DNA of 64,000 nucleotides from Cinnamomum chago. Taxonomy: Eukaryota; Streptophyta; Magnoliopsida; Laurales; Lauraceae. A program made the position numbers and the translations under genes. The notes below the pieces were generated by a model. The model searched no databases. It was not told the origin of the DNA and was given only the letters and a program-made list of their open reading frames with translations. The stretch lies in NCBI GenBank assembly GCA_038049695.1, contig CP142451.1, positions 43,163,001 to 43,227,000 on the forward strand, given 5' to 3'. This document shows, piece by piece, positions 3,098-62,570 of this stretch (the stretch's first letter is position 1; each line of letters begins with the position of its first letter).

Positions 3098-3290
3098 CGG
3101 TCGACCGGCTCGGGGGCTCAGTCGACCGGTGACACAAGGTCAGGTTCTCTAGAACCTGACCAAAAACACTGTTGACCATTTTCAGTTACAAGTTGACCGG
3201 GCACACAGGAAACAGGTCGACCTGACCTCCTCAGGTCGACCGGGGCTGCTGTGTATGGAGTCGACCGGGCCTTGACTAGGTTGATCGGGA
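3098..3290 (+). repeat. Palindrome cluster, GTCGAC type, in solo LTR G1
   Basis: About eight GTCGAC or related cores are packed in 190 bp. They include CGGTCGACCG (3098-3107), GTCGACCGGT (3121), CAGGTCGACCTG (3213-3224), AGGTCGACCGG (3233) and GTCGACCGGG (3260), with decayed copies such as TTGACCGGG and TTGATCGGG. A 24-bp inverted repeat (arms GGTCAGGTTCT and AGAACCTGACC, 2-nt spacer) sits at 3138-3161. The cluster starts 1.23 kb into the LTR. Confidence 0.85.
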
Positions 3291-4409
3291 CAACTGAGAA
3301 CTCCTTCCTGGAAGGGATTTTTACCTTATTTTTGGATGGACTTAGGTGGGACTTTGGCTACCCTTTTTTGACTCATTTGACTATATGTGAGGATGTCTTG
3401 AGCCGACGTTCTTCACGGTTATTCTGGTCGCATCGGAATCCAATCTAATTCAATCTTAAACAGTACGAGACAACGGGATACTCCTTTATATCTATGCACG
3501 AAGTCTGTTTCTTTGGGTATCGCGAATCCTATTCCTTTTTGGTGACTGAGTAGGTTGTACGATGCTTCAGGATTAACATTGTACTTAGGATTGGATTGTC
3601 TATAGTTTTGATTTTAAATCGTACCGTCTGGTATTATCTACAAGCTCATTTAAAGTTTTGAAAATCCTAAAGTGTAAAAGGAGTCCGGAATGTCTTCAAA
3701 CTCAAAGAGTACCAGGTCATTATTAGAATCGACATACAGGACCCCTATTCACCTTAAACAAATCTCGAAATCGCTATTTTACTCGAAATCGTAATAGTTC
3801 ATTGTATTTCTTTATTCCCGAGACTTACATTACATGACTTGCTTTCCCGAAATCATTGAAGTTGCACTTGTAACAGTTACTTGTCTTGAAGTGCATTGCA
3901 CCACATGAAAATGAAAGTTATGCCTTGAGCATCCTTGTCCCTCCTGTTTATTTACTTGCACTTGATTTATTTACACATGTCTCAATTTGTTATTTGACTT
4001 ATGAGTCGGCATCACTAAGCTTGGATAACCTTGTCGGTTTGATCCATCGACTTGGAGATTCCTCTCATGTCCCGCCAGCTGCAGTTTGGATCCCGATGCT
4101 CGGTTTATTACCGTGGTCCCGTCCCGTACATTTATATTGTATATGTATATTTCGTTGAATCTCCTCACCTCATGTGACTAAGACCAACCCCCCGATATGC
4201 TCTCGTCACTTCGGTGATAGAGGACTTAGCTTCGTGTGATTGCCATCTTGCTAGTTCCCGATTCCTTGGATACCTTACATGTTTTATATTGCTTATTTGT
4301 CCTCCAGTAAATGATTTATTTCTTTTATGAAAGTTATTGCTTAAACAGATTTTAATGTTTTCCAAGGTAATTCATTTATTATATATTGTTGTATCTTTTC
4401 ACCCGCTTG

Positions 4410-4427
4410 CCAGACCGTCGCGTCTGG
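4410..4427 (+). other. Conserved stem-loop near the LTR 3' end (G1)
   Basis: CCAGAC pairs with GTCTGG around a six-base loop CGTCGC. The same element (stem CARAC/GTYTG, loop close to CGTCGT) occurs in all eight other LTR copies that reach this far, always followed by a conserved GGTNCTCAGG-like stretch. Function is unknown; an RNA role such as packaging, dimerisation or 3' end formation is only a guess. Confidence 0.6.
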
Positions 4428-5072
4428 TCCTCTTTCTTTGGTGCTCAGGTCCCATTGCCGGTTGCCTTAAGGAGGAGCCGGAGGAGGCGGTCGGTGAACC
4501 GCAACACCTAGTTGAGTGGCATGCTGATGATGTCATTTAAACATTTGGTTGCCACGAGAGACTAACATTTTGGGAAACTGCTTAACCATTCTTTTAGGTT
4601 ATTGTTTTGAGGTGTATTGGCCTTTGTTGGCCTCTATTTTTAGGGAATGTAATTAAATGATCTTTTGTATAAACTTTAACTTACTTTTGGGAAACATGCT
4701 AATGATCATTGCTCATTCTGATATAGTGTTTATACTTGTGATATTGTCTTTATGACTAGAGATGGTTTGAACTTTTGATTTGCTACTCGCTTCCGCACTT
4801 AAAAGAAATGTTCATATATGGTTGTGATATCCTCACTACGGACACCTGTGGGAAATTAAATAAATGTGTGCATCTTATCACCCCACACTCATCACATTAG
4901 TCCCAATCCCGGATTAGGACCTTGGCGACCTGGTCCAGGGTTGCGACAAAGGGCAAGGCATGATGAATTTCCCTATAGCCCTTTTATTTCCATGTTTAGA
5001 TTACCATGTAAGTCTCATTGTAGAGACATAGGAATTTATGTAATTTTTTTCCAAAATTTGTAAATTCTGGAG

Positions 5073-5165
5073 ATGTTCGAGATGAAGAAGGAAAGTGAAG
5101 TTGGACTCCTAATCAAAGAGTTTGAAGATTACCAAAAGCCTTTTGGAGATGCCCAAAGAGTTTGA
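5073..5165 (+). other. Small upstream frame (30 codons) in the copia A leader
   Basis: An ATG opens a 30-codon frame ending in TGA. Unit 2 has the same frame, same length and same stop at 16187-16279. Four residues differ between the copies and the differences change amino acids, so selection on the peptide is not shown. It may act as an upstream frame in the leader or may simply be chance. Confidence 0.3.
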
Positions 5166-6830: not shown

Positions 6831-8243
6831 TGTGAGAACCCGACCCCTAATCTCTTGGATTAGTGTTGTTTTATTTGTGGATTAGTTTCTTTTAGTGGGA
6901 TTAGTATTTGTTGGGTTGAGTTTGTGAGCTAGAATGAGTTTTCTTCTAGTTTTGGGCTTTTGAGTGCTTTGGTAGCTTGTGGGGCCCTTTGGGGGTTCCC
7001 TTTTTGGCTTTACATTTACTTGTGAGATTTTTCCGATTTGTTTCGTATTGTGTTTTTGGCCCGTTGCATTCATCTTGAGGAATCCTACAACTTTCATGTT
7101 GATCCCGTATCCATTTGAGAACCCGAAACCCGATTTCTTGGCCTTGAGGGCAAAATAGTCATTGCACACCAAATCTGTACCCAAAACTTGATATTCCCGA
7201 AACCCATGAAACATATACTTTTTGGAAACTAAAAATTTCGGCGATCATTTCTTCCTTTTTCGTCGAATTCATCCGAGGTCCCGAAAGAGATGATTTCAGC
7301 CACCCAAGTTCTTTAAGTTGTGGGACCCAAACCTCACTTGCTTATAAGAGGAACCCATCTCCTTCATTCATTCCATTCTCCATTGTTCCAGCACAACTAT
7401 TGAGCCTAGGGCTTTTCTTGCAACTTCTTCTTCTTCTTCTTCTTGCTTCTTCATCTCCAAGCCACACCAAGAGTTCATCAATCAAGAAATGGAGACCATC
7501 TTCTTCTTCCTCTTCACCATGGCTCCCTATTGATACCATTTTTGGAGAAATCTCCCAACCTAGAGACCTCCCTTGAGCTTGTTCTTCTCATTTGAAGGTC
7601 ATCCAAGTAAGTGTTCTTCTTCATCTTCTAGATTTGTAATCTTCTAGCCTTAGAGAAGCTCCACCTTGATTATTGAAAGGTTTCCTTGTCATTGCATTGT
7701 TTAACCCATTTTAGGGTTTGTTTTGGGGGTTTTTGTAGAGATTGTGGATCTTGAGCTTGAGAGGTGATTAGGAGCTTGATTTGCTTGATTAGAGTCAAAG
7801 GCAAGTGGATGAATGGATGGTTTGAATGTTATTAAGTTTTATGAGAAAATCCTAAGTTTTATTACTTGTTCTTGATCATTGGATACATGTTTGCACATAT
7901 GCTTCTTGTCACATTTCTATTGATTTCGAAATGCATATGAATGGGTTTTTCTCTCTTGTTAAATCTCTTGGAACTCTTGGAAATGTATGCATTTCATTTG
8001 GTCAAGTTTGTTCATATGGTTTTATAAGGAATGAGGTTGGATTGGCTATTCATGGTTATGTTTATAAGTTACATTGACTTGAATTGATACTCATTTAAAG
8101 AGGTGTTTGAATTTAATTGTTCATTGGAGTTCTATTGAGGATTTGAAGTGATTATGGAAGAGAAATGCTAGTGGTTTAAGTGTTGGAAAGGAAAGGAAAA
8201 AGGAAGGAAAAATCAGTGTCCCGGACCTGCTGCATGCTTAGGT

Positions 8244-8295
8244 CCGATCGATCGGCCTGTCTTTTAACTGTAAGGCTTTTTGGGCCGATCGATCG
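8244..8295 (+). repeat. Palindrome cluster, GATCGATC type, contracted
   Basis: CCGATCGATCGG (8244-8255) and GGCCGATCGATCGAA (8283-8297) are separated by a conserved spacer CTGTCTTTTAACTGTAAGGC. In the related LTR at 41201 the first site is two adjacent palindromes; here they are fused into one, as if about 22 bp was lost between two cores. Confidence 0.8.
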
Positions 8296-8305
8296 AACCC
8301 TGTGC

Positions 8306-8402
8306 ATTAGGGTACAATTGGTCTTAACACTAAGGTATATACCCCTAGGACTCATAGAAAGCCCAAAGGTTTCCAAAAAAAAAACAATATCAAATTTCAC
8401 TG
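8306..8402 (-). other. Inverted 97-bp segment inside solo LTR G2
   Basis: This segment matches the reverse complement of 42733-42828 in the sister LTR almost base for base; for example GGTATATACCCCTAGGACTC here is GAGTCCTAGGGGTATATACC there. The flanking LTR sequence (equivalents of about 42668-42732 and 42829-43126) is missing on both sides. The orientation at 42733 is probably ancestral, because G1 LTRs share its right-hand flank in order. Confidence 0.9.
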
Positions 8403-9289
8403 ATTAATGTCATGCCTAGGATGGACCGTTTATAACCTTGATTCTTGCTATTGTAACATCTAGTACTACCCATAAGCTCATTTTAAGTTTGGAAAATCGA
8501 AAAGTGCATAAGGAGCCCGGAATGTCTTCAAACTCAAGGAGTACCAAGTAATTATTATAATCGACATACGGGACCCCTATTCACTTAAATAGATCTTGAA
8601 ATCAATATTCTTCCCGAAATGGTATAGTGCATTATATTTCCTCATTTCCCGAGATTTGCATCACATGACTTGTTTCCCAAAAGCATTGAAGTTACACTAG
8701 TAACAGTTATTTGTCCCGAAATGTATTGCCCGATATGAAGTGACAGTGTGCCCTTGAGCACCCCCATTTTACCCATTTATTTACTGTACTTGATTTACTT
8801 GCATATGTCTCGAGTGGTTTTGACCTATGAGTCGGCATCACTAAGCTTGGATACCTTGTCGGTTTGATCCACCAACTTGGAAGTTCCTCTCCCGTCCCGC
8901 CAGCTGTAGTTTGGATCTCGATACCCAGTTATTACCGTGGTCCCGTCCCGATACCCGGTTCGCTACCGTGGTCCCGTTTCCGTATATTTATATGGTATAT
9001 ATGATTTACGTTGAGTCTCCTCACCTTGTGTGACTGAGACCAACGTCCCGTGATACTCTTGTCACTTCGGTGATAGAGGACTTAGCTTCTTGTGATTGCC
9101 ATCTTGCCAGTTCCCGATTCCTTGGATACCCGACATGTTTTATATTGCTTACTTGCTTTCCGATAAATGATTCGTTTCCTTTATGAAAGTTGTTATCTAA
9201 ACAAGTGTTCATATTCTCCAATGTAAATTCAGTTATTATTATATTGTTTTCTGTCCCTTGTACACGTACATGTTTTAAATGAATGCCGG

Positions 9290-9990
9290 TTGGGTGAATA
9301 CCCATGCTTTTATATATGTTTCAAACGATCAATGATTTTGCTAGATTTATATGATTACACATGTTTTAAAGGAATTCCCGAGTTGTTAAATATTCGTGCT
9401 TTGTTTTGAACGACATTTGGTTTGTCAGATATCTACGCTTATACCTGTTTTAAATGAATACCCGGACTGTTAAATATCCATGCTTTGAAATATGTTTTAA
9501 ATGACACGCGTTTTGCCAGCTTCCTATGTTTATACCTGTTTTTATATGATACCCGATTTGTGGAATACCCATGCTTTGAAATAGGTTTTAAATGACAATG
9601 TTTTGTCAGATTCCTATGTTTATACCTGTTTTAAATGATTACCCGGTTTGTTAAATATCCATGCTTTGAAATATGTTTCAAATGACACTTGTTTGCCAGA
9701 TCCCTACGTTATACCTGTTTTAAACGATATCCGGTTTGTTAAATATCCGCATTTCTACACAGGTTTCAAATGGACATTGGTTTTGCTAGACTGTTATGAA
9801 TACCTGGTTTGTTGTATACTTATGTTTTTACTTAAGTTTCAAACGAACGTTGTTTTTGCCATACCACTATATTTATACATGTTTTAGACGAACATCCGAT
9901 TGTCAAATATCTATGATTATAGATGATGTAAACGAACACATGTTTTATTAGATATTCATGTTTTACCCATGCTTGAAATGAATACAGGTT
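9290..9990 (+). repeat. Degenerate 90-bp tandem array in LTR G2
   Basis: Seven to eight copies of a unit of about 88-92 bp, containing TTAAATATCCATGCTTTGAAA, TTTAAATGAATACCCG and TTGCCAGATCTCTATG-like words. Successive starts lie near 9378, 9464, 9555, 9642 and 9732. The same array is at 44120-44770, and a shorter one at 34615-34950. Confidence 0.8.
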
Positions 9991-10105
9991 TTCCCCGAGA
10001 TTCCCGACTTTGCACCCGTTTAATTATATGCAGCATTTGATCGAGTATCATGATTTATCTTATGTTTTATTCTTCAGTATATTTGTTATCTTTTTATCCA
10101 CCTGC

Positions 10106-10121
10106 CAGACCGTCGTGTCTG
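10106..10121 (+). other. Conserved stem-loop (G2 copy)
   Basis: CAGAC, loop CGTCGT, GTCTG. This is the G-C form of the stem-loop seen in all these LTRs. Confidence 0.55.
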
Positions 10122-10617
10122 ACCCACTACTGTTGGTACTCAGGTTCAGATTTCTTCGCCCCGAGTTGAGTGTTTTTGTTGGCTGTGGAACCATGCCTTG
10201 CAGGTTGGTTTGTCGGCTATGTCATGTAGACATTGAGCTTGACATCGGAGCTACGTCACATTTGGGTAGTAGTTTATAGCTTATTGTTGTATGGCTTTTA
10301 TTAGCCTTTTTCTTGGGATTCTTAATTAATGCACATTGATAATTGTAACTTGAACATATTTGGGAATGTAATATCCTGTTACTGTCAGCTCTGTATCTTA
10401 TTGTGATGGTTACTCCAGTCTGATATGATTCTTGATATAATAGCTATGTGCTAAAGGTTGAGTGCGACGCGGAATCCGATGGCCACGGACTTCCGGTCGC
10501 AACGCTACGAAAGCTTCAGAATGTGTTGTCTTCACACACGCGGATCCTGGGAGAAGTAAAATACATTTATGCTTAATCCCATTCCCGCCCCCGAGGTTTC
10601 GGTTCGGGGGCGTGACA

Positions 10618-15350: not shown

Positions 15351-17237
15351 CATACCTCATCTCTAATCATGTTAGATCGGCGATCTAGATCTAATCTTTG
15401 CATGAGATGCGAAGAGGGTAGACCTAGGGCTATGTAACGATTGGTTATGATTGGGTTTGTTTACTTTATGTAGTAAATCCATGTTTGGATAGTCATAAAA
15501 GGGTTTAATTATGATGGAAGGATGGTAGGATGCCATTGAGAGCCTTCAAAAGTGTTTTGGAGGTGTTTGGACTCGAATTGAAAAAACCCAATTTTCTGCC
15601 TTCGTCAGGCGGGTCGACCTGGCCCCGCGCTCGGTCGACTGGGTACCTGTAGGGTCGGTCGACCGGGAACACAGAACTTTATTCTTTGATCCAAATTTTT
15701 TGGTTCGGGCGAGCCCCTGCCCGGGGACCAGCCCCCGCCTGGGGACCAGCCCCCGAAACCCCGCTGGGGGCGCTGCCCCTTGGGCCCCCCGCGAGCTGAC
15801 CGGTTAGCTCGAACCCCGCCGGGGGACACCCCCGGACCCCCTCTGCGAAGTGCATGTATTAAAAGGGTGGCTACTTTTGGCATCATGTTTTTCCATTGTG
15901 GTTTGGTAACCTGGTTTTGTGAGATGCTTTGTTGTATGAGATACTAACTTTCAGGTGATAATGTCCTCTCCATATGGCCCACAAGTCTTTGACTTTCTTT
16001 TTATTGTTATTGGTTTATTTGAGGCTAAGTGTAAAGGGCATCATGGTTTCCTTGGTTTACCGTGAAAGGGCAAGGCATGGTGAATCTCCCTATAACCCTT
16101 TTATTTCCATGTTTAGATTACCATGTAAGTCTCATAATTGAGGCATAGGAATTTATGTAATTTTTCTAAAATTGTAAATTCTGGCGATGTCCGAGACGAG
16201 GAAGGAAAGCAAAGTTGGACTCCTAATCAAAGAGTTTGAAGATTACCAAAAGCCTTTTGGTGATGCCCAAAGAGTTTGAGGAATCCCAAAGTTTTGGAAA
16301 GTCTAGAAGTCCAAGAAGTCTATTCCGCTTGGCCCATGTGGAGGAGAGGACTGGTTTCTAATTTTAGCTTTTTCTATTTATGGATGAATTCTTAATTTAG
16401 AATGTTTCCATATGTGATCCAAACATAGCAAGTTACCAAAATTGGTCAAATCAAATCAATTTTTGGAAAGAGTTCTAATTAGAGTTGATGGGCCCATGAG
16501 ATGGATCCATTGGTAACACTAATTTAGAAACTGAACTTTCCTTAAAATAACTTGACTTGGAACCAATCATTGGTCATATCATGAGATGATTTGATGTGTA
16601 TATATGTGGGCCCATGTACCCTGAGGGAAATCCTCAATTCTAAAATATTAAGTGGGAGCGTGCATTTATAGTTAGAAATCCCCATGGTTTTCCACCATAG
16701 GTCTATTGTAAGGAAAGTATTAGCCTCGCGCCATCTTGAGAATGGCCGTTCCCCACGGAGGGCTTTTACTTGTCTGGTTACTAGATATGGATCTCCCTAT
16801 GGATAGTGTTGGTGAGACGGGGCAGGGGGCCCACTCCCCAAGGAGGAGCTGCTTGCAACGGTTATCATGCAATGCTAGTTGGTGGGTCACACTTAACTAA
16901 AATAATGATGTAGTATCCCCAAGGATCTGCCTCATTTATTTTAGAAACCGAAGCTAATTGGGAGTCATTCATTATTTGGTATGAGATACCTAGATAATAA
17001 TGAATGAAGGGGATCATGGAAAGTTAGTCTTAATCCTAATTTCGACCAACTTTGATCCGCATCAATCTAGGTGGTATTCGCACTCCCTAAGGAGGCATAC
17101 CCCGGAGATTGGGATTCCTATGTTTTCTGAATTTAGTCGTTATGAGGATTCCCATATAAATTTGGTAGAATACTAAACCCTAATGTCATTTAAATTCATT
17201 AATTGAATGTATGGTTTTGTGCTACAGTTTTTCAAGC
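15351..17237 (+). other. Copia A unit 2 leader
   Basis: Collinear with the unit 1 leader but without the solo LTR. It includes a GTCGAC palindrome cluster at 15611-15666 and a very GC-rich insert at 15705-15845, with repeats of GGGGACCAGCCCC; the equivalent patch in unit 1 (1575-1625) is much shorter. The 30-codon upstream frame lies at 16187-16279. The gag start codon of unit 1 is changed here from ATG to ATT at 17238, so unit 2 Gag has lost its normal start. Confidence 0.8.
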
Positions 17238-23878: not shown

Positions 23879-25119
23879 TTTAAAACCCCATTCCATATTA
23901 GCTCGATTAGTGTTAATTAAGCAAGTTTTTAGTTTTTAAGAGGTTTTAGTATTCATCAGATTAGAATAGTTGTTTTAGACTTGGTACTAGTTTAGAGAAT
24001 TTTGAGAGCGTTGGTTGAGTCAGACACGCTCAAGGAGGCCTCAGTGCACGTGTAAGCCTCGGGAGGTTGATCATGGTTTTCTGCTTTGTTTGTAATTTTG
24101 AATTACCTTGAGTACTTTTATTATTTCCTACGATTATCGTATTTTAACCATCAGTGTTTGAAACCCAAAAATCTGTGTTTTTGGCCAAAAGGGGTAGGAT
24201 TTGTCTTTTACACCCAAATCTGGACACGATTTCCGAAATCTCGAAACCATGTCAAAAATATACTTTTTGTAAACTAGATTTTTGAAGGATAATTTTATCC
24301 TTCTTCGTCAACCTTGTCCGGCGCCTGCAAGAACATGTTCTAGCCGTTTGAAATTCCTGACATGATGGAACCCACACCTTCACTCAAGCCAAATAAGCCC
24401 TTTTCTTCCCTCACTCTCACTCATTCACTCCATTCTCATATTGGGTCCCCAACGTGCAGTGCTAGGAAGGTCTCCTTCTTCCTCTTTTTCTCTCCATTTT
24501 CTTTTCCTTATAACTCAACTATTTGGACTTGGATTGAAGCTTGGATCTCACCATCCTCTTCATCTCCTTCTAAGCTTTCGATTGGACCTATTTGTTGGAC
24601 ATTTGTAACAAGACAAGCTCTTCTTCTACTTCTTTCTTCCTTCTTGTTGGTCATTTCTAGGTAAGAGCTTCAACCATCTCTTCAATGGAGTTCTTTTTAG
24701 CTCCTATAGATCTTGTTTTACATGTTTGCAAACCCTCTTTCTAAATGGGTTCTTTGTTTTTCTAATGTTAGGGTTTTGAAGTTCTTTTTGGGATTCTTGT
24801 AGATATTAGCCCAACTCCTTGATAGGATCCTTGAGAAGGTTGGATTTGTGCATTTTGAACTAAGGCAAGTTATCCTTTTAGTTTTCTTGATGAATGATTA
24901 AGTATGGATTTCATTTTAGCCCCAAATGTGATTTTTAGGTTTGATTTTTGTATTCATAGTAATGTGATGTTTTATTTTGGAAATCCGCTATCAACTTGCA
25001 TTTATATGTTTTAGCATAGTTTCAATGCCTTTGTTTAACTCAAGTTTCGTTTTGAATGGTTTACTATTTGGTTGGAGAAGACAGTGCCTGAATCTACAAC
25101 TGAAATGGTCTTTCTCGAG

Positions 25120-25490
25120 CTGGCGGTCACCTCAGCAGCTAGCCGAATGCTGATCGGCGGCTAACCGACCCAGTTTCGGTTAGAAATACAGAATGTTGAA
25201 GGTTCTGGGTAACCCTAGCGGCTAGCCGAAAATTTGACCACGGCTAACTGCCAATGGAACCGCCAGGTCGTTGAAACTCGTGGTTAGAAACACAGAATTC
25301 TGTAACTGACAGGGATCTAGCGGTCAACTGGCGGGTAACCGACATGCACCTCCGCGGCTAGCCGACAGGTGACTGAGAAAGTTCGGTTACATTTCCAGAA
25401 GCTAAATTTTCTGTCTGAGACTTAGCGGTCGGCTGGTGGCTAGCCGACCTACATTTCTGCGGCTAACCGGCAGGTGACCGTGAGCTAATC
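25120..25490 (+). repeat. Palindrome cluster, GCTAGC type, in element B 5' LTR
   Basis: About a dozen copies of CGGCTAGCCG or CGGTTAACCG-like units occur, for example CGGCTAGCCG at 25219-25228 and 25355-25364. They alternate with GCGGTCACC or CAGGTGACCG words and ACAGAATT spacers. The 3' LTR has the same cluster at 56180-56520 with one unit fewer at its left end. Confidence 0.82.
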
Positions 25491-26333
25491 GAATTTTTAG
25501 TTATAGTCTTTTTTTGTTGGATTTTCTTGGGGAATAAGAACCAGAATATATTTAAGAGCTTTTAGCTTGATATTATACATTTGGAACTCGAAATGTCTCT
25601 TAGCTTCGGGAGCACCAAATTCGTTTTATTACGACATTTGGGCTACCAAATACATGAGGGTCAAATGAAGGGCCTTAATATATATACTTGATAAATTTGC
25701 TTAAATTCTCAGTTTTGACAGGAGAAATATTGTTTTGTACACGTTTTGATTTACAAGCTTCAGTCACGTTTTGAACTGTTTTCAAGAACCATTAAGGGGA
25801 TCACTTCTTAAGTTCAGTTTTGCTATAGCCTATGCTATTTCTGATCGGTTCTGCTTTGCCCAGTTTTGACAAGTGATTTCCCCTATTTTCGATTTGTTTT
25901 GTATACATTAGTCATGTTTTGTGCATTCATGACTTATGATGAATACCACTGAGCTTGGACTGCCCTTTCAGTCTGATCCACTGTCTGGGGAGGGGGGGGG
26001 GGTCCTTAAACACTTGGACTTTCTGCAAATTAGTCGTATATTATATATATATATATATATACATCCTGTTCTGACCGGTAACGCGACCGGTACCAGCCTA
26101 TCTTTCTCGTACGAGATCCTGTTTTGTTCTGCTTACTCTTTTCATTGTATATGATAGAGAAAGGACGGGCTCAATGTGGAATTATCTATTCATGATGTTA
26201 TAAGTATCTATACTAGTTTTACTTATTTCAAATGTATATTAGTTCTGTAATTGTTTTAAATTCAATAAATATTTTCAATAATGTTCCTCCTCTTTATAAA
26301 TGTTTTAAATACTTGTCTAAATTGATTTCTTGC

Positions 26334-26349
26334 CAAGCCGTCGTGTTTG
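26334..26349 (+). other. Conserved stem-loop, element B 5' LTR
   Basis: CAAGC, loop CGTCGT, GTTTG; one G.T pair, otherwise the A-T form of the stem. Confidence 0.5.
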
Positions 26350-26859
26350 ATTCTTGCATTTTGGTACTCAGGTACAGGCATTCATGCCCTTGAGGAGGAG
26401 TGTCCGGAGGAGGCTGTTGAGCCACCCCCAGCTCGTGAGTGGCAACCCGTTGCCGTCATCTAGACGTCGGGAGGATCCTTGAGACGCTCATTGTTTTGAT
26501 GAGGGATTTACCATTTCATGATTTTGGGAATGTATTGGCCTTTGTTGGCCTCTTTTTGGGATGTCTCTTAACAATATACTTTGTTAACTTTGAACTTGAA
26601 TGTAATTGGGAATCGTCCTGTTTATATTTCTCTCTCTGAAATGCTTGACTTGATTATTTCAATTATATAAATGTGGTTTCTATATCACATGTTTTTGTCT
26701 TGTTGTAATTTGCTACACGCTTCTGCAACTATTGTATGTGTGAGTTTGTCCCACGACCTTGGGATCCTCACCGGGGGAAACTGTGGGAAATTATTGCCGT
26801 TAATTGAATGGCAAACTTGTCGCGGGGCCTGGACTCCCGGTCCAGGGTCACAACAGGAC

Positions 26860-38732: not shown

Positions 38733-38748
38733 CAAACCGTCGTGTTTG
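38733..38748 (+). other. Conserved stem-loop, A-T form (G1)
   Basis: CAAAC, loop CGTCGT, GTTTG. The sister G1 LTR has the G-C form at 4411, so within one family both partners changed. Confidence 0.58.
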
Positions 38749-39277
38749 ACCTACTCTTTGGTACTCAAGACCCGTTGTTGGTTATCCCGAGGAGGAGCAC
38801 GAGGAGGCGGTCGTAGAACCGCAACAGTTAGTTGAGTGGCGTGCTGATGACGTCATGTAGACGTTTGGGTGCTACGAGAGAGTTACATTTTGGGGAAACT
38901 GTTTAACCATTCTTTGGATTGGTATTTTGGTTATATTGGACTTCGTTGGCCTCTATTTTGGGAAATGTAATTAAATGATATTTGTATAAACTTTAACTTA
39001 CTTTTTGGGTAACATGCTAATGTTCATTGCTCATTCTGATACTTGATTATACATGTGACTATCTGGTGATTAGAAGTAAATTATATTTGATTTGCTACAC
39101 GCATCCGCACTTATTAGAAATGTTCATGTATGGTTGTGATATCCTCACCGCGAACACTTGTGGGAAATTAAATAAATGTATGGAATCATTTAACCGATGT
39201 GGTAACATCATCTACATCATCATTAAATGTCCCGATCTCGGATCAGTCACGTGGGGGCCCGGTCCGGGGTCGCGACA

Positions 39278-40073: not shown

Positions 40074-42589
40074 TGTTAGGCTATGCGATTCAGATCTGAA
40101 CTCTCATGTTAGGGACGTCCATGGCTGATTTTGGATCGTCAAGACAGATTTGATCTGGGCAGCGCAAATCAGCCATAAAATACGCATAATAACACCATGA
40201 AATCATGATAAACAAGTGTATAACAAAAGGAGATGAGAGAGGACCAATACCTTGATGATATGAAGACTTCAAATCTCTGAAACTAAAGTTCCAAAGGACT
40301 GATCACAGGCCTGCAATCAGCAATACAAGTTGCAGGAATTTTCTGCGATGACTTTTCTTTTGATCTTCTCTTCTATTCCACAACCCAATCTGATTGGCTA
40401 TGATTGTGGGATCAAACTATGGATTCCTTGAGAGGTTTTCTGAACTATATTTTGTGGAAAGACCCAGACCTGATTTCCTCTCATCAATGAAGGAAGAAGA
40501 AGCTAGCCATGGGCGTATGAAACTCTCCTTTTGGACAGCCAATGGGTTTGCACGCCTAGGGTTTTTTTTTCTCCTCATGTTGTTGCATTCCTACGGGAAA
40601 TATATATATATATATATATAGTTTATATCCCTTTTAGTTCTCTCTAATAGGAAGGACCATCCCATGAATTTAGCAACCAGCTACCTTAGGAGTGCAACAA
40701 CTTCTAATTTTAGTTTCTAAAACAATTAGAAAACATTAACCATAGGAATTCTTACCCAATGAGGAATTCAACCTTCCAACTAAAGATACCTATTCAAAAT
40801 TTGAAACCTCACACAAGGGGATCCCTTTATGGCTGGCCCACAGGATAGATAAACGCACCATGGCCCACAGGTTAATAATTTAGCTAGAGTTAAAATCATG
40901 TATGCCATCAAAGGCCTATTTGAATTTAAACTCAAAATTATTTTTCCACAAAAAATAATTCAACCAGATATCATCTAATCAAATTAGGAAACCATGTCAA
41001 TATAGGAAAGTGGCTAGAGAAGGGACCAAAAGACATATTTGCCTTTGGCTCCCAAGATGACCAAAATGTCCATGCTAACCCCATAGCAACATTAAGATCA
41101 TTTTAACCCTAACTCATTCCACTAAAGAGTTATGGTTGCACTTCAGAGACAAATATTAAATATGAAATAAGCTCGTCATGAAACGACATTCGTCTTCGAC
41201 TGTGAGAACCCGACCCCTAATCTCTTGGATTAGTGTTGTTTTATTTGTGGATTAGTTCTTTTAGTGGGATTAGTATTTGTTGGGTTGAGTTTGTGAGCTA
41301 GAATGGGTTTTCTTCTAGTTTTGGGCTTTTGAGTGCTTTGGTAGCTTGTGGGGCCCTTTGGGGGTTTCCTTTTCGGCTTTGCATTTTCTTGTGAGATTTT
41401 CCCGATTTGTTTCGTATTGTGTTTTTGGCCCGTTACATTCATCTTTAGGAATCCTACAACTTTCATGTTGGCCCCGTATCCATTTGAGAACCCGAAACCC
41501 GATTTCTTGGCCTTGAGGGCAAAACAGTCTTTTCACACCAAATCTGTACCCAAAACTCGATATTCTCAAAATCCGTGAAACATATACTTTTTGAAAACTA
41601 GATATTTCGACGATCATTTCTTCCTTCTTCGTCGAATCCATCCGAGGTCCCGAATTAGATGATTTCAGCCACCCAAGTTCCTTAAGTTGTGGGACCCAAA
41701 CCTCACTTGTTTATAAGAGGAACCCATCCCCTTCATTCCTCATTTCCTCTCCATTGCTCCAGCACACAACTGAGCCTAGGGTTTGCTCTTGTGTTTCCTC
41801 TTCTTTTTCTTGCTTCTCCATCTCAAATCCTCACCAATCTTGCACCAAACTCGAAATGGAGACCGTCTTCTTCTTCCTCATCTTGCAAGCTTTCCATTGA
41901 TACCATTTGTGAAGAGAACCCTCCATCACAAGACTTGCTTTGAGCTTACCTTGTCCATTAGAGGACCTTGCAAGTAAGTGTTCTTCTCCATCTTCTAGAT
42001 TTGTAATCTTCTAGCCTTAGAGAAGCTCCACCTTGATTATTGAAAGGTTTCATGGTCATTTCATTGTTTAACCCGTTTTAGGATTTGTTTTGGGGGTTTT
42101 TGTAGAGATTGTGGATCTTGAGCTTGAGAGGTGATTAGGAGCTTGGTTTGCTTGATTAGAGTCAAAGGCAAGTGGATGAATGGATAGTTTTGATTATTAA
42201 CATGTTTTGTGAGAAAAATCTTGTTTCATTAAGGGTTTTGGTGATTTTAGTAGTTGTCTTCACTATGATTAATATTGATTTCGAAATGTGCTTATTGATG
42301 AGTTATTTCCCTCTTGTTCATGCTTGGAAAATGTATGCATCATATTGTCAAGGTTTCAAATGGTTTCACATGAATGAGTTTTCTCCACCTTGAGATTTAT
42401 TGTGAATGGAAAGAATGGAAAGAATGGAAAGGGAGAAACTTGAAATGAGGAGCTCTTTAGCTCATTTTAATGTCTTGGAAAATATGTGTTGAAGTCATCT
42501 TGATTGTAGTTCTATGTGGTTGTTGAAGTGTTGGAAGGAAAGGAAAAAAGAAGGAAAAATTCAGTGTCCCGGACTTGCTGCACGCCCAG

Positions 42590-42707
42590 GTCCGATTGAT
42601 CGGACCTACAGGCCGATCGATCGGCCTGTCTTTAACTGTAAGGCTTTTTGAGCCGATCGATCAGACTCTGTGTATACCTGGTACAGAAATTTCGACCGAT
42701 CGATCGG
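42590..42707 (+). repeat. Palindrome cluster, GATCGATC type, with a 22-bp perfect palindrome
   Basis: GGTCCGATTGATCGGACC (42590-42607, palindromic but for the centre) directly abuts a perfect 22-bp palindrome at 42608-42629 with arm ACAGGCCGATC. AGCCGATCGATCAG follows (42651) and CCGATCGATCGG (42696-42707). Confidence 0.9.
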
Positions 42708-43394
42708 ACCGAAGGAGGACTCAGTTTGAGTCCAGTGAAATTTGATATTTGTTTTTTTTGGAGACCTTTGGGCTTTCTATGAGTCCTAGGGGTATATACC
42801 TTAGTGTTCAGACCAATTGTACCCTAATCTAAGGTCTCTAAGACTAGAGAACTAAAAGAAAAGAATGGTGATGATCTAGGCACTAATTCTTGGCTTTAGG
42901 TGGGACCCTGGCTACCTTTTTGGACTGTTTGGACCATGTGTGAGAATGTCTTGAGCCGACGCGCCTCATGGTTGGTTTGGTGGCATCGAAGTCCAATTCA
43001 TTTCAATCTTGAACGGGATGGAACGACGCGATATCTTCTTTATATCTAAACACAAGTCTTTCCCTTGGTTATCGCGAATTCCATTCCTTTCGGTGACTGA
43101 ATAGGTTGCTCGATGTTTCCGGACTAATGTCATGCCTAGGATGGACCGTTTATAATCTTGATTCTTGCTATTGTAACATCTAGTACTACCCATAAGCTCA
43201 AGTTAAGATTTTAAAGTAGTAAAAGTGCATAAGGAGCCCGGAATGTCTTCAAACTCAAGGAGTACCAAGTAATTGTTATAATCGACATACGGGACCCCTA
43301 TTCACTTAAATAGATCTTGAAACCGATATTTTTACCCGAAATTGTTATAGTTCATTGTTTCACCTCTTTTTCCGAGATTTGCATTACATGACTT

Positions 43395-43640
43395 GTTTTC
43401 CCGAAAGCATTGGAGTTACACTAGTAACAGTTATTTGTCCCGAATGTATTGCCCGATATGAAGTGACAGTGTGCCCTTGAGCACCCCCGTTTTACCCGTT
43501 TATTTATTGTACTTGATTTACTTGTTTTCCCGAAAGCATTGAAGTTACACTAGTAACAGTTATTTGTCCCGAAATGTATTGCCCGATATGAAGTGACAGT
43601 GTGCCCTTGAGCACCCCCGTTTTACCCGCTTATTTACTGT
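43395..43640 (+). repeat. Tandem duplication of about 120 bp in LTR G2
   Basis: The block from CTTGTTTTCCCGAAAGCATT through GAGCACCCCCGTTTTACCCG to TACTTGATTTACTTG occurs twice in direct succession. Only the first letters and a few bases differ (GGAGTTACAC against GAAGTTACAC). The sister LTR at 6831 has one copy, so this is recent. Confidence 0.9.
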
Positions 43641-44119
43641 ACTTGATTTACTTGCATATGTCTCGATTGGTTTTGACCTATGAGTTGGCATCACTAAGCT
43701 TGGATACCTTGTCGGTTTGATCCACCGACTTGGAAATCCCTCTCCCGTCCCGCCAGCTGCAGTTTGGATCCCGATACCCGGTTATTGCCGTGGTCCCGTC
43801 CCGATACCCGGTTCGCTACCGTGGTCCCGTTCCCGTATATTTATATTGTATATATGATTTGCGTTGAGTCTCCTCACCTTGTGTGACTGAGACCAACGTC
43901 CCGTTATACTCTTGTCACTTCGGTGATAGAGGACTTAGCTTCTTGTGATTGCCATCTTGCCAGTTCCCGATTCATTGGATACCCGACATGTTTTATATTG
44001 TTTACTTGCTTTCCGATAAATTATTCGTTTCCTTTATGAAAGTTGTTATTTAAACAAGTGCTAATATTCTCCAATGTAAATTCAGTTATTATTATATTGT
44101 TTTCTGTCCTTTGTACTCG

Positions 44120-44770
44120 CACATGTTTTAAAGGAATGCCGGTTGGGTGAATAACCATGCTTTTACATATGTTCCATACGATCAATGATTTTGCTAGATT
44201 TATATGATTACACGTGTTTTAAAGGAATACCCGAATTGTTAAATATCCGTGCCTTGTTTTAAAGGACATTTGGTTTGTCAGATATCTATGTTTATACCTG
44301 TTTTTAAATGAATACCCGAATTGTTAAATACCCATGCTTTGAAATATGTTTCAAATGACACTTGTTTTGCCAGATCACTATGTTTATACCGGTTTCAAAT
44401 GAATATCCTATTTGTTAAATACCCCTGCTTTGAGATATGTTTTAAATGAACATTAGTCTTGTCAGATTTCTTTGGTTACACATGTTTTAAACGAACACCC
44501 GGTTTGTTAAATATCCGTATTTTCACATACGTTTCAAATGGACTTTGGTTTTGCTAGACTCTATGAATGTCTGGTTTGTTGTATACTTATGTTTTTACTT
44601 AAGTTTCAAATGAACGTTGTTTTGCCATACCACTATATTTATACATGTTTTAGACGAACACCCGATTGTCAAATATCTATGATTATAGATGAAGTAAATG
44701 AACACATGTTTTATTAGATATTCATGTTTTACCCATGCTTGAAATGAATATAGGTTTTCCCCGAGATTCC
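44120..44770 (+). repeat. 90-bp tandem array in LTR G2
   Basis: Seven or so degenerate units with the same words as 9290-9990. Confidence 0.78.
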
Positions 44771-44871
44771 CGACTTTGCACCCGTTTAATTATATGCAGC
44801 ATTTGATCGGATAGCATGATTTATCTTATGTTTTATTCTTCAGTATATTTGTTATCTTTTCATCCACCTGC

Positions 44872-44887
44872 CAGACCGTCGTGTCTG
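44872..44887 (+). other. Conserved stem-loop, G-C form (G2)
   Basis: CAGAC, loop CGTCGT, GTCTG, identical to 10106-10121. Confidence 0.55.
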
Positions 44888-46270
44888 ACCCACTACTTTT
44901 GGTACTCAGGTTCAAATTTCTTCGCCCTGAGTTGAGTGTTTTGTTGGCTTTGGAGCCATGCCTTGCAGGTTGTTTTGTCGGCTATGTCATGTAGACATTG
45001 AGCCTGACATCGCAGCTACGTCACATTTGGGTAGTAGTTCATAGCTTTTTGTTGTATGGCTTTTATTAGCCTTTTTCTTGGGATTCTTAATTAATGTACA
45101 TTGATAATTGTAACTTGAACATATATGGGAATGTAACATCCTGTTACTGTCAGCTCTGTAATTTATTGTGATGGTTATTCCAGTCTGATATGATTCTTGA
45201 TATAATAGCTATGTGCTAAAGGTTGAGTGCGACGCGGAATCCAATGGCCACGGACTTCGGGTCGCAACGCCACAAATGCTTCCGCAAAATATTCAGAATG
45301 TGTTGTCTCCACACACGAGGATCCTGGGAGAAGTAAAATATAATTTATGCTTTAATCCCATCTCCCGCCCCCAAGGATCTGGTTCGGGGGCGTGACATCG
45401 ACCTACTAAGTGAAATGACCGAAATGCCCCTCTATGTAACATCCATAATCAAGCCAGGTTATCCGATGTACTATCAACCTTCTTGATTATATCTCAACCT
45501 TAGAACTTCATATCCTTGACTTAATCATCATGCGGATATCATTCTCTTGGTCCAGGGAGCGACCCACAAGTTCAATATCCATATGGAACATCCATATACT
45601 AAGATCTTAGATTTTGATGATTAATCGGATAATTCTAAGGGGACGATCACTCCATCACAAGATGGCATAGATTCTTTATTGCATCTGTACGTCCCAACTA
45701 ATCAAGCTCGAGTACCCAAAACACAGAGCTGTCAACCCATGAACAGGATCTCACCCATAGTGAATTAAAGTACAAGAACTCGACTTCGTCAGTTCATCCA
45801 CATATGCTCAAGATTAAGAGCAGTGGTCACTCAGTAGCATAAGGTTACTTGATCTCTCTTAGTGATAGTACTATTTTAGATATCACACCTACAAATGGTC
45901 CTGTTCAATGCATGACACATGCACTAATGAGATAAATCCGGAAAAGCCTCCCGTGACTAAGGTAAGTCACCCTGAATACAGGAGAGTATCTCACTATAAC
46001 TTATACCAAGATGAAGTGCCCAATTCCATCTCTCAGTTATGAACCAGTTTATTGTTTCAAGTGTCCATGACTCAGACCTGTCTGTGTGTAGCCACTACAC
46101 ACCCAAGTCATTTACTAGAAACAATGGACCTTACACAAACATACATATATACATGCAGTAAGAGAAAAGAATAATTCTAATAAATAACCAGTAAATATCC
46201 AGTAACAGAGATGTGGGTACTGTCAGTGGGCTTTAGGGCATACACAAAACCCAACAAACTCCCACTTGCA

Positions 46271-54952: not shown

Positions 54953-56179
54953 TGTCAGACCCCATCACAGATTAGCTAGATTAGTGTTAATTAAACGAGT
55001 GTTTAGTTTTTAAGAAGTTTTAGTATTCATCAGATTAGAATAGTTGTTAGACTTGGTACTAGTTTTGGGAATTTTGAGAGCGTTGGTTGAGTCAGACACG
55101 CTCAGGGAAGCCTGAGTGCACGTGTAAGCTTCGGATGGTTGATCATGGTTTTCTGCTTTGTTTGTAATTTTGAATTACCATGAGTACTTTTATTATTTCC
55201 TACGATTTTCGTATTTTAACCGTCAGTGTTCGAAACCCAGAAATCTACGTTTTTGGCCAAAAGGGGTAGAATTTGTCTTTACACCCAAATCTAGACACGA
55301 TTTTTGAAATCTCGAAACCATGTCAAAAATATACATTTTGGAAACTAGATTTTTGAAGGATCGTTTTATCCTTCTTCGTCAACCTTGTCCGGAGCTCACA
55401 AGAACATGTTCTAGCCGTTTGAAATTTCAGACATGATGGGACCCACACCTTCACTCAAGCCAAATAAGCCCTTTTCTTCCCTCACTCTCACTCATTCACT
55501 CCATTCTCATATTGGGTCTCCAACATGCAGTGCTAGGAAGGTCTCCTTCTTCCTCTTTTTTTCTTCATTTTCTCTTCCTTATAACTCAACCATTTGGACT
55601 AGGATTGAAGCTTGGATCTCACCATCCTCTTCATCTCCTTCTAAGCTTTCGATTGGACCTATTTGTTGGACATTTGTAACAAGACAAGCTCTTCTTCTTC
55701 TTCCTTCCTTCTTGGGTCATTTCTAGGTAAGTGCTCCAACCATCTCTTCAATGGAGTTCTTTTTAGCTCCTATAGATCTTGTTTTACATGTTTGCAAACC
55801 CTCTTTCTAAATGGGTTCTTTGTTTTTCTAATGTTAGGGTTTTGAAGTTCTTTTTGGGATTCTTGTAGATATTGGCCCAACTCCTCGGTGGGATCCTTGA
55901 GAAGGTTGGATTTGTGCATTTTGAACTAAGGCAAGTTATCCTTTTAGTTTTCTTGATGAATGATTAAGTATGGATTTCATTTTAGCCCCAAATGTGATTT
56001 TTAGGTTTGATTTTTGTATTCATAGCAGTGTGATGTTTTATTTTGGAAATCCACTTTCAAGTTGCAGTTATATGTTTCAGCGTAGTTTGAATGCCTTTGT
56101 TTAACTCAAGTTTCGTTTTGAATGGTTTACTATTTGGTTGGAGAAGACAATGCCTGAATCTGCAACTAAAATGGTCTTT

Positions 56180-56520
56180 CTCGAGCTGGCGGTCACCTCA
56201 GCGGCTAACCGACCCAGTTTCGGCTAGAAATACAGAATGTTGAAGGTTCTGGGTAACCCTAGCGGCTAGCCAAAAATTTGACCACGGCTAACCGCCAGGT
56301 TGCCGCAATTCATGGTTAGAAACACAGAATTCTGTAACTGATAGGGATCTAGCGGTCAGCTGGCGGCTAACCGACATGCACCTCCGCGGTTAGCCAACAG
56401 GTGATCGAGAAAGTTCGGTTACATTTCCAGATGCTAAATTTTCTGTCTGAGGCTCAGCGGTCAGCTGGCAGCTAGCCGACCTACATTTCTGCGGCTAGCT
56501 GACAGGTGACCTTGAGCTAA
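56180..56520 (+). repeat. Palindrome cluster, GCTAGC type, in element B 3' LTR
   Basis: Same layout as 25120-25490 but shorter. The first unit and part of the next are missing relative to the 5' copy, and several units have point changes (for example CGGTTAGCC for CGGCTAGCC). This shows unit loss within one element since insertion. Confidence 0.8.
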
Positions 56521-57361
56521 CCGAATTTTTAGTTATAGTCTGTTTTTGTTGGATTTTCTTAGGGAATGAGAACCAAAATATATTTAACGGTTTTAGCTTG
56601 ATATTATGCATTTGGAACTCGAAATGTCTCTTAGCTTCGGGAGCACCAAATTCGTTTTGTTACGACATTTGGGTTACCAAATATATGAAGGTCAAATGAA
56701 GGGCCTTCATATATATACTTGATAAATTTTCTTAAATTCTCAGTTTTGACAAGAGAAATATTGTTCTGTACACATTTTGATTTACAAGCTTCAGTCACGT
56801 TTTGAACCGTTTTCAAGAACCATTAAAGGGATCACTTCTTAAGTTCAGTTTTGTTGTAGCCTATGCTATTTCTGATCGGTTCTACTTTGCCCAGTTTTGA
56901 CAAGTGATTTCCCCTATTTTCGATCTGTTTTGTATACCTTAGTCATGTTTTGTGCATTCATGACTTATGATGAATACCACTGAGCTTGGACTTCCTTTTC
57001 AGTCTGATCCATTGTCTGGGGGGGTCTTTAAACACTTGGACTTTCTGCAAATTAGTCGTATTTTATATATATACATCATGTTCTGACCGGTAACGCGACC
57101 GGTACCCGCCTATCTTTCTAGTACGAGATCCTATTTTGTTCTGTTTCTGCTCTGTTCTGCTTACTCTTTTCATTGTATATAATAGAGAAAGGACGGGCTC
57201 AATGTGGAATTATCTATTCATGATGTTATAAGTATCTATACTAGTTTTCCTTATTTCAAACGTATATTAGTTTTGTAATTGTTTTAAATTCAATAAATGT
57301 TTTCAATAATGTTCCTCCTCTTTATAAATGTTTTAAATACTTGTCTAAATTGATTTCTTTC

Positions 57362-57377
57362 CAAACCATCGTGTTTG
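57362..57377 (+). other. Conserved stem-loop, A-T form, element B 3' LTR
   Basis: CAAAC, loop CATCGT, GTTTG. Confidence 0.5.
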
Positions 57378-57888
57378 ATCCTTGAATTTTGGTGCTCAGG
57401 TACAGGCATCCTTGCCCTTGAGGAGGAGTGTCCGGAGGAGGCTGTTGAGCCACCCCCAGCTCGTGAGTGGCAACTCAATGATGTCATCTAGATGTCGGGA
57501 GGATCCTTGAGACGCTCATTGTTTTGATGAGGGATTTACCTTTTCATGATTTTGGGAATGTATTGGCCTTTGTTGGGCTCTTTTTGGGATGTCTCTTAAC
57601 AATATACTTTGTTAACTTTGAACTTGAATGTAATTGGGAATCGTCTTGTTTATATTTCTCTCTCTGAAATGCTTGACTTGATTATTTTAATTATATAAAT
57701 GTGGTTTCTATATCACATGTTTTTGTCTTGTTGTAATTTGTTACACGCTTCCGCAACTATTGTATGTGTGAGTTTGTCTCGCGACCTTGGGATCCTCACC
57801 ACGAGAAATTATGGGAAATTATTGCGGTTAATTGAATGGCAAACCTATCGAGGGGCCCAGACTCTCGGTCCGGGGTCGCGACACCCTT

Positions 57889-60867: not shown

Positions 60868-61129
60868 CCTATAGCTAGTAAAACAACGCAACTAACCTAA
60901 GAGTCAGAGAAATTATGTGGTTGGCCTAAAATCCAATGTAAGTAAAACTTCTCTTAGCTTCACGTGCTGATCCAGGGGTGTCCAGACTCCAAAGGGTAGG
61001 TCCAAATAATCCATTATACAAAAGATGTTCTATAATAACATAAGCATAATTCAAATTTTGAACACATTCCCTTCTTGGCCTCAACCGTACAGGTAGCTTG
61101 AGCCCCTTACACATTTCTGAATTTGTCAT
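60868..61129. other. Short unassigned interval
   Basis: About 260 bp between the two LTRs. A minus-strand frame runs through most of it (60926-61147), but I recognise no family and it overlaps the next LTR start, so I do not call a gene. Confidence 0.4.
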
Positions 61130-61695
61130 TGTAAGACCCCGACCCAAGTGACCTCGATTAGCACTAATTAAGTCGTGTGTTAGCTCTAAGTGAGATTAGT
61201 GGATTTTGGATAAGTTGGGATTAGAATAGCTTTTAAATAGCTTTGGGGAGTTTTGAGTGCTTTCTTGATCTAGTGGGACCTTTTGGGGTTCCTTTAGTGA
61301 CTTTGCTTATACTTGGGGATTATTCGAGATTTTCAACAATTTGTGTTTCATCATCGTTTGACTTATCTTGTTAATCTCTACAACTTTCGTGTTGACTTCA
61401 TTCCCATTTGAAATCCCGAAGCCCGACTTCTACAATTTCGAGGGCAAAACAATCTTTTTACACCAAATCTGGACACAAAATTTGATGTTCCCAAAACTCT
61501 TAAAATATATACTTTTTGGAAAATAGATTTTTCGACGATCACTTTTCCCATCTTCGTCAAACTCATCTGAGGTCCCAATAGCCATGTTTTTAGCCCGACA
61601 AGATTTGTTAGTAGTGGAGCCCACCCTCACTTGTTATAAAAGGAGAACCCTTTTTCCTTCTTCTTTTTTCCAGCTCAAGTTCAGCCAAGCTAGGG

Positions 61696-61745
<50 letters not shown>

Positions 61746-62570
61746 TCTTCATCTCTTTTACACTACCAAGCAATTGCCATTGGAGCAATGGAGGTCATCA
61801 TCTTATTCATCTCCTTGGATACCTTTAGAAGTGAAAACCAACCACATTACAACTTCACTTGGGCTAGTCTTACCCATTTGAAGACCTTGCAAGTAAGTTA
61901 GTTTCCTCATTTTTCTAGATACATGTTCTTCTACCCTTTGAGAAGCTTCACCTTCATTATTGCAGGCTTTCTCTTCCCCATTCATGGTTTTGACCATTTA
62001 GGGTTTTTAATGGGTTGTATTTGGGGGGTTTTGTGTAGCTTGGTGATTTTGAGCTTAAAAGGGAGATTAGGATCTTGCTTAGTCATCCTTGAGGCCAAGG
62101 CAAGTGGATGAATGGGTTGTTGAATGATTTCATGTTTATGTGAAAATATGGATTTTCATTTATTGTCTTCACCTATGCTTTCTCTATGAGTTTTAATAAC
62201 TTTGAAAATGAATATTGGTGAGTCTTTTCTCTTATTTGATCTCTTAAAATGTGCACATTATATTTTGTTAAAGTTCCTTGTCACTTATAGATCTTCATAA
62301 ATGATGGTTGTTCTTGTGATAAATGAAATGGGAAATGAATGTGGTTTAATGATATTGGTGGAGTGGTTGTTGGAGGAGTTAATATGGTTTGGAGGAGGCA
62401 AAGAGACTTAAATGGTTGTAAAATAGTAATGGTTCGAAGGAGGTTAGAAAGGGATGAAAGAAGAGAGCCCGAAACTCCATTTCTGCAGCATTTGTGATAG
62501 TTCGCTCGAGCGATCTTGACAGTTTGCTCGAGCGAACCCATCCAGAGGACAGTTGGCTCGAGCCAACCTG
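61130..62570 (+). repeat. Truncated gypsy G1 LTR
   Basis: It starts TGTAAGACCCCGACCC and follows the G1 backbone. TATAAAAGG lies at 61635, donor-like AA|GTAAGT at 61892, acceptor-like TGTGTAG near 62037 and GC-type AAG|GCAAGT near 62098. It ends abruptly just after the third CTCGAG palindrome (62552-62567). The remaining half of the LTR is absent. A CT microsatellite (about 21 repeats, 61700-61742) expands a pyrimidine leader that is short in the sister copies. Confidence 0.88.
62500..62567 (+). repeat. Palindrome cluster, CTCGAG type, at the truncation point
   Basis: Three units: GTTCGCTCGAGCGATC (62500), GTTTGCTCGAGCGAAC (62522-62537) and the perfect 16-bp palindrome GTTGGCTCGAGCCAAC (62552-62567). 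Relative to GTTCGCTCGAGCGAAC in other LTRs, the last has matched changes on both arms. Confidence 0.9.

Follow-up and report, generated by a model that had tools for sequence, protein, structure and literature searches.

The window analysed here is a 64-kb stretch of plant DNA from Cinnamomum chago (contig CP142451.1), in which many long terminal repeat (LTR) retrotransposons are nested. Nine gypsy LTR copies, named by their start positions (Table 1), each carry a cassette of short CpG-rich palindromes, the subject of this report. Five of the nine (6831, 27859, 31986, 36157 and 41201) are solo LTRs with exact 5-bp target-site duplications. Copy 1873 is inserted in a copia element, and a copy of this element free of the interruption continues at 16065. 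Copies 23879 and 54953 are the 92% identical LTR pair of one element, and the nine copies therefore represent eight independent insertions. The gag-pol region of this element is split by nested elements. Its Pfam domains are those of Ty3/gypsy (RVP_2, RVT_1, RNase H and Tf2-1-like SH3 pieces), and we take it to belong to the Tekay/Del lineage. The protein encoded by its integrase end (54219-54791) shares 86% identity with one from Persea americana, the top match among the best 120 of 4013, which points to a probable magnoliid host close to Lauraceae.

The original prediction had described one palindrome cluster at a fixed place in each LTR, at offsets 1225, 1413, 1241, 1217, 1372, 1335, 1389, 1227 and 1370, and all nine clusters are indeed present there. 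The offsets of the first units are given here as 1226, 1415, 1258, 1220, 1387, 1339, 1393, 1250 and 1374; they differ because a different unit was taken as the first. Eight of the nine LTRs are 2830-4197 long, and their first unit, at 1220-1415, falls within the upper half; 61130 is cut by the window end. The LTR sequence had been described as alignable around the cassette. Both sides do align, but offsets 1001-2000 are hypervariable, with a mean identity of 0.32-0.53 against 0.43-0.79 before and 0.51-0.72 after (41201 scale, seven of nine copies). The fixed place of the cassette is thus a variable island.

Four core types had been distinguished, namely GTCGAC, CTCGAG, GATCGATC, and GCTAGC with GGTGACC. 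The last stays separate, but the other three collapse into one 10-bp word, CG-X-TCGA-X'-CG, in which a single symmetric base pair varies. X is G in 1873, A in 6831 and 41201, and C in 27859, 36157 and 61130. Most of the apparent core exchange is a switch of this one pair, shared by almost every unit in a cassette. When one mismatch is allowed, CGNTCGANCG matches 36 places in the window, of which three are overlapping shifted matches and one (59586) lies outside any cassette. Nineteen matches are exact, and 16 of these 19 are symmetric at X. The GCTAGC/GGTGACC type is a looser CGG...CCG relative, found as CGGCTAGCCG-like and CGGTCACC-like units in 23879, 54953 and 31986. The number of units per LTR ranges from 2 (6831) to about 12 (31986).

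Table 1 LTR copies, palindrome cassettes and associated signals, in window positions (TSD, target-site duplication; PBS, primer-binding site)
Feature	Position	Strand	Remarks
Gypsy LTR, solo-like, GTCGAC type (X=G)	1873..4947	+	TSD degenerate; 3' end GCGACA at 4947
1873 LTR cassette	3098..3267	.	5 CGGTCGACCG-type units at 3098, 3119, 3214, 3233, 3258
Solo gypsy LTR, GATCGATC type (X=A)	6831..10617	+	TSD AGAAT
6831 LTR cassette	8245..8295	.	2 CGATCGATCG units, 41 bp apart; then a 97-bp segment inverted vs 41201
Gypsy element 5' LTR, GCTAGC type	23879..26855	+	PBS-like TGGTATCAGAGC at 26860
23879 LTR cassette	25124..25480	.	8 CGGCTAGCCG-like units (at most 2 mismatches) and CGGTCACC-like units; pairs 22-23 bp apart
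Solo gypsy LTR, CTCGAG type (X=C)	27859..30688	+	TSD CAACA
27859 LTR cassette	29078..29303	.	8 CGCTCGAGCG-type units, steps 21, 51, 21, 51, 21, 18, 33 bp; 3 of 8 asymmetric at X
Solo gypsy LTR, GCTAGC/GGTGACC type	31986..35555	+	TSD GTATG
31986 LTR cassette	33361..33551	.	3 CGGCTAGCCG-like and further CGGTCACC/CGGTGACC-like units; about 12 together, steps 11-13 and 22 bp, one gap of 57
Solo gypsy LTR, CTCGAG type (X=C; single X=T unit at 37629)	36157..39277	+	TSD TGCAG
36157 LTR cassette	37495..37763	.	9 CGCTCGAGCG-type units, steps 22, 51, 20, 41, 40, 20, 43, 22 bp
Solo gypsy LTR, GATCGATC type (X=A)	41201..45397	+	TSD TCGAC
41201 LTR cassette	42593..42706	.	4 CGATCGATCG-type units, including a 22-bp perfect palindrome at 42608-42629
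3' LTR of 23879 element, GCTAGC type	54953..57883	+	
54953 LTR cassette	56190..56512	.	7 CGGCTAGCCG-like units, pairs 22-23 bp apart
Gypsy LTR truncated by window end, CTCGAG type	61130..64000	+	Unlike the other LTRs past the cassette
61130 LTR cassette	62503..62564	.	3 CGCTCGAGCG-type units, steps 22 and 30 bp
Copia copy 1 motif	1483..1537	.	3 units (X=G) at steps of 21 and 24; assigned to the internal leader from its homology to the 15611 copy; PBS match not found in copy 1
Copia copy 2 motif	15611..15665	.	3 units X=G, steps 21 and 24; starts 272 nt after PBS-like site at 15339
TATA-like box TATAAA	2378..2383	+	Offset 506 of the 1873 LTR
AAGGCAAGT, GC-type splice-donor-like, conserved in 9/9 LTRs	2836..2844	+	By alignment

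Within the window, the clustering of CG-containing palindromes exceeds that of dinucleotide-shuffled controls. A cluster was defined as at least three copies in 300 bp, and 100 local dinucleotide shuffles served as the null. CG-containing 6-mer palindromes form eight clusters (seven places), against a mean of 0.22 and a maximum of 1 in the shuffles. Seven of these clusters (six places) are gypsy cassettes, and one lies in a copia element. When all palindromes that are not purely A/T are counted, there are 19 clusters against a mean of 2.56 (maximum 7): the eight CG-containing ones, two of GCTAGC in cassettes and nine of other words beyond the cassettes. A perfect-palindrome score compared with 500 dinucleotide shuffles is clear in six of the nine cassettes (P≤0.002), weak in 23879 (P 0.012) and not significant in 54953 (0.184) and 31986 (0.116). 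The failure of the last two to beat the shuffles identifies the GCTAGC/GGTGACC type as a repeated but imperfect dyad. Ordinary tandem repeats do not give a full account, since Tandem Repeats Finder reports an array over one cassette only (27859, 72-bp unit). Rfam gave no match within the window at the gathering threshold. Linker words resembling heat-shock elements were also considered and rejected: GAA..TTC occurs at 1.98/kb in the cassettes against 0.31 in the window, but four of five lie in the two LTRs of one element.

The word CG-X-TCGA-X'-CG and its spacing are also found in two copies of a Ty1/copia element, which the original prediction had missed. The element with the units at 1483 and 15611 is assigned to copia by DNA similarity to the copia open reading frame (ORF) at 46976-50032. 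No CG-palindrome cluster was found in the element of this long ORF. The copia element stands in a tandem arrangement in window positions 1-23878, with common repeats at 1-1206, 13627-15337 and 20217-21929, and is interrupted by two gypsy solo LTRs.

Core type does not follow the descent of the LTRs. The tree of the 5' flank splits a B group of three copies (27859 with X=C, and 23879/54953 with GCTAGC) from an A group formed by the other six, with 100/100 support. The 3' flank tree, which omits 61130 as not homologous there, is concordant. A CTCGAG clade is rejected by the 5' flank (approximately unbiased test, p 2e-46, 9/9 rows) and by the 3' flank (p 3e-39, 8/9 rows). The same holds for a GCTAGC clade (5' flank p 3e-37, 9/9 rows; 3' flank p 3e-24, 8/9 rows). 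On the flank trees, core type needs at least four changes, and the two clades testable across groups are both rejected. The predicted discordance between core type and an LTR tree built without the cassette is therefore confirmed. As for the idea of an exchangeable cassette, type does cut across the tree, but physical exchange between families is not established. Of the five same-core pairs, three have similar linkers (P≤0.05), but so do 5 of the 23 pairs with different cores. The longest exact match between cassettes, that of 27859 and copia, is inverted. Cassette swapping via common linkers thus gave a mixed result and is not claimed. The linker sequences would fit either block movement or repeated origin of the types.

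Between the two LTRs of the 23879/54953 element, the cassette has 386 aligned and 34 gap columns, compared with 2529 and 44 elsewhere, and substitutions amount to 7.3% in the cassette and 5.7% elsewhere. Copies 6831 and 41201 are about 90% alike and have 2 and 4 units, respectively. In addition, the 97-bp segment at 8306-8402 in 6831 is inverted relative to 42733-42828 in 41201, with flanking loss. The gap excess, the difference in unit number and the inversion suggest that gain, loss and rearrangement are the main ways in which the arrays change. Such changes, together with the 72-bp tandem units in 27859, would also be expected of a neutral by-product, in which slippage, unequal crossing-over and strand-switching of reverse transcriptase amplify short palindromes in an unconstrained stretch. 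We consider this origin improbable. The word recurs in copia here and, according to the available part of PMC2829016, in a Vitis Sirevirus. Moreover, palindromic CG words cluster more per word than non-palindromic ones (8 clusters for 23 words against 120 for 1162), and the spacing of the units recurs although the linkers are unlike.

Spacings of 20-23 bp, whose recurrence the original prediction had likewise overlooked, account for 16 of 35 successive ones and occur in all eight cassettes used, against null means of 3.3 and 2.67, and none of 3000 random placements was as high. The eight cassettes are seven gypsy and one copia; 31986 was entered with three units, and 6831 (single spacing of 41; 0/1), 54953 and the second copia copy were excluded as near-duplicates of cassettes used. 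The TCGA-type spacings have a period of 10.4-10.5 bp (27 spacings, Rayleigh p 8e-6), and the support is modest when the 14 unique values are taken (p 0.034). Since 20 of 28 cassette pairs have linkers without similarity at P 0.05, the spacing outlives the sequence.

Several signals lie upstream of the cassettes. All six A-group LTRs have TATAA[AG] at offsets 506-514, followed by a pyrimidine-rich stretch. In all nine LTRs, a GTAAG/GTAAT donor-like site (offsets 753-781), a [CT]GTAG acceptor-like site (888-924) and AAGGCAAGT precede the cassette. The TATA-like box in six copies and the splice-site-like motifs in nine suggest that the cassette is probably part of a transcribed, perhaps partly spliced, leader.

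The main alternative to a protein-binding array is a function in RNA. The units could pair in the leader of the genomic RNA and form stacked hairpins or RNA-RNA contacts, which would serve dimerisation, packaging or the production of small RNAs. The position downstream of the TATA-like box and donor-like motifs fits this proposal, as does the position of the copia units 3' of a PBS-like site. The RNA of yeast Ty3 dimerises by a short 5' palindrome, as described in the available part of PMC11381356, and palindromes of maize Sireviruses are hot spots of small-RNA mapping in the parts available of PMC5311732 and PMC10760457. Folding z-scores of -1.8 to -10.2 point in the same direction, but both strands fold well. 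Furthermore, self-pairing needs no invariant TCGA centre, covariation beyond the cassette consensus is absent except at one position, and in 31986, looser units included, steps of 11-13 bp are too close for adjacent units to pair as a hairpin. Sirevirus motifs, moreover, lie upstream of TATA in the available text of PMC2829016. On balance, an RNA function appears possible but rather unlikely. A special form of it is decidedly improbable, in which the array would tag the genomic RNA for self-recognition: RNAs with like words would pair best, dimerise and be co-packaged, and a switch of X (or of TCGA to CTAG) would found a new compatibility group. Such a tag would account for the discordance between type and LTR tree, for the nearly uniform type within a cassette and for the word shared with copia, and would mean a pairing code common to two retrotransposon superfamilies.

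The original prediction had also held that the cassettes keep their CpG sites in spite of probable methylation. This was not borne out. In TCGA-type units, 22 of 222 CpG positions differ from the cassette consensus (12 of them C>T or G>A), against 6 of 148 other positions. The observed/expected ratio of CpG is 0.66-1.25 in the cassettes and 0.29-0.72 in the remaining LTR. The CpG-rich units could be silencing sites read by the host or resistance sites read by the element, with core change as an escape, in analogy to VANC and its targets. The difference in motif across whole arrays of relatives does resemble VANC targets, which are tandem repeats varying among related elements in the part of PMC5735166 available. 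The greater divergence of CpGs from the consensus, compared with other positions, resembles that of methylated DNA and argues against this role. The gene content also speaks against it. The only internal region present has ORFs of at least 120 amino acids that were recognised as a gag-like piece (no Pfam hit) and as protease, reverse transcriptase, RNase H and integrase-end pieces; among them, no extra gene or element-encoded binder was recognised, and the other copies are solo or cut. We regard sites of this kind as very improbable.

The explanation that we favour, with about even confidence, is that the cassette acts in cis as a phased array of binding sites for a host protein, probably a transcription factor, that contacts DNA as a homodimer. 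In the A group, the transcript would include the array some 0.7-0.9 kb past its predicted start, in an island where tandem gains and losses are tolerated. Each site would be the 10-bp dyad CG-X-TCGA-X'-CG or the looser CGG...CCG form, and sites often placed about two helical turns apart would align the dimers along the same side of the helix. If X changed symmetrically in the dyads throughout the array, a different protein might bind, and the place or time of element expression would shift accordingly. The array, its symmetry, its spacing, the tree discordance and the occurrence in copia are direct observations; the protein, its host origin, its transcriptional action and X as the specificity determinant are what we infer. 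Sequence-specific recognition is favoured because the TCGA centre and the CG arms are invariant in three of the four types, the spacing recurs with unlike linkers, and there is no compensatory pairing beyond the consensus. For single units, such pairing is absent overall (37 units, k2-8: 160 observed, 160.9 expected, P 0.64), as expected when the sequence and not the pairing is read. In Sireviruses of other plants the word lies upstream of TATA, and the position relative to the start would thus be flexible, as in an enhancer. Among the functions proposed originally, a palindrome-binding protein fits best, but the single internal region with its ORFs of at least 120 amino acids lends no support to one encoded by the element.

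Several points weigh against this explanation. The range of 20-23 bp was chosen after the spacings had been inspected, tandem duplication makes the spacings within a cassette dependent, and common ancestry could transmit the spacing. At arm position k=4, there is more pairing than in shuffles (P 0.007). On either strand, folding of the cassettes is stronger than that of shuffles (z -3.6 to -10.2 for gypsy, -1.8 to -3.6 for copia; 60 shuffles each), which fits the RNA-level models. The TATA-like and splice-like signals are sequence matches only. The three B-group LTRs have no TATA-like word at 506-514, and such words are found there only inside or downstream of the cassette. In four of the A-group LTRs (1873, 6831, 31986 and 36157), additional TATA-like words stand shortly upstream of the cassette. 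The predicted start site is therefore tentative.

The closest known system is the repeated motif (RM) boxes in the LTRs of Sireviruses (Ty1/copia), described by Bousios et al. 2010 (PMC2829016, from whose available part the following comparisons are taken). As here, RM boxes are CpG-rich palindromes that occur in several copies at one defined place, in the upper half of the LTR, and the motif varies between elements. The Vitis Sirevirus RM, CGGTCGACCG, is identical to the GTCGAC type, and the Citrus RM, AATCCGGCTWRCCGGATT, contains CGGCTARCCG, the GCTAGC type. The dyad symmetry of the repeated motif is shared as well, more weakly by the GCTAGC type. The CGG-CCG signature is present in the GTCGAC and GCTAGC types but not in the CTCGAG and GATCGATC types, and Tnd-1 also lacks it. 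Sirevirus RM boxes number at least eight copies per element, against 2 to about 12 per LTR here, where most LTRs are solo. Their cluster defines a CpG island, to which the CpG ratio of the present cassettes may be compared. In contrast to the A-group cassettes, which follow the TATA-like box, RM boxes lie shortly upstream of TATA, and the available text makes no mention of a 20-23 bp spacing. The cassettes would work like RM boxes but are no member of this class, because their carrier is Ty3/gypsy and not a Sirevirus. RM boxes were called Sirevirus-specific and absent from the classic retrotransposons compared.

Other systems are less similar. A palindrome region of maize copia elements (2016 work, through the available parts of PMC5311732 and PMC10760457) likewise evolves rapidly and has strong predicted folding, but it concerns copia in maize, and the maize survey, in the part available, reports no obvious structure peak in Ty3 elements. 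The VANC target motifs of VANDAL transposons are also short, tandemly amplified and of different type among related elements. VANDALs, however, are DNA transposons with their own VANC gene, their motifs are YAGTATTAY and AGTTGT[CA]C, and the main text, as available, does not use 'palindrom' (PMC5735166). The Ty3 dimerisation site PAL6 is likewise a palindrome in the 5' RNA of a Ty3 element, but in the available part of PMC11381356 it is a lone 6-mer, situated apically in a short hairpin, and not an array. Among the matches listed, no description of such arrays in Ty3/gypsy LTRs was found in the open-licence literature.

Relatives beyond the window were also searched. Against viral contigs, the integrase end found no locus as a single query and one as an alignment query (L001, 63% GC, not plant-like), and a 21-base conserved LTR word had no match in viral_contigs or genome_contigs. 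Ten loci coding for relatives were located in bacterial or archaeal assemblies, and several of these bacterial-record contigs (L002, L003, L004, L005 and others, e.g., BMWJ01000031.1), which carry plant-like gypsy integrase ends, are probably plant contamination. The closest relative, L002, ends about 464 bp into the LTR, short of the cassette. Neither L005 nor L007 has a palindrome cluster, and L006 has only one, before the matched part; for these three, it is not established that the right LTR offset is reached. L003 and L004, which are one element type, have TATA at offset 476 and an ATGCAT cluster at LTR offset 1653 (L004 154-561, L003 7239-7452). ATGCAT occurs nine times in L004 against 3.3 expected (maximum 9 of 1000 shuffles) and five times in L003 against 1.7 (maximum 6). 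The support from outside the window is thus one weak case.

Palindromic motif arrays were previously described as a speciality of Sireviruses. Here, Sirevirus-type words stand in Ty3/gypsy LTRs and in another copia element; their spacing is recurrent, and their type switches without regard to the LTR tree. If this holds genome-wide, two retrotransposon superfamilies would use one symmetric code, and its reader, be it a host protein, an RNA dimer or the silencing machinery, would become testable.

The LTRs also contain tandem repeats beside the cassettes. Repeats of about 90 bp are found at a matching place in three A-group LTRs (9402-9748, 34614-34929 and 44255-44553), and 63-bp repeats at 62605-62885 directly follow the cassette of 61130, where its likeness to the relatives ends.

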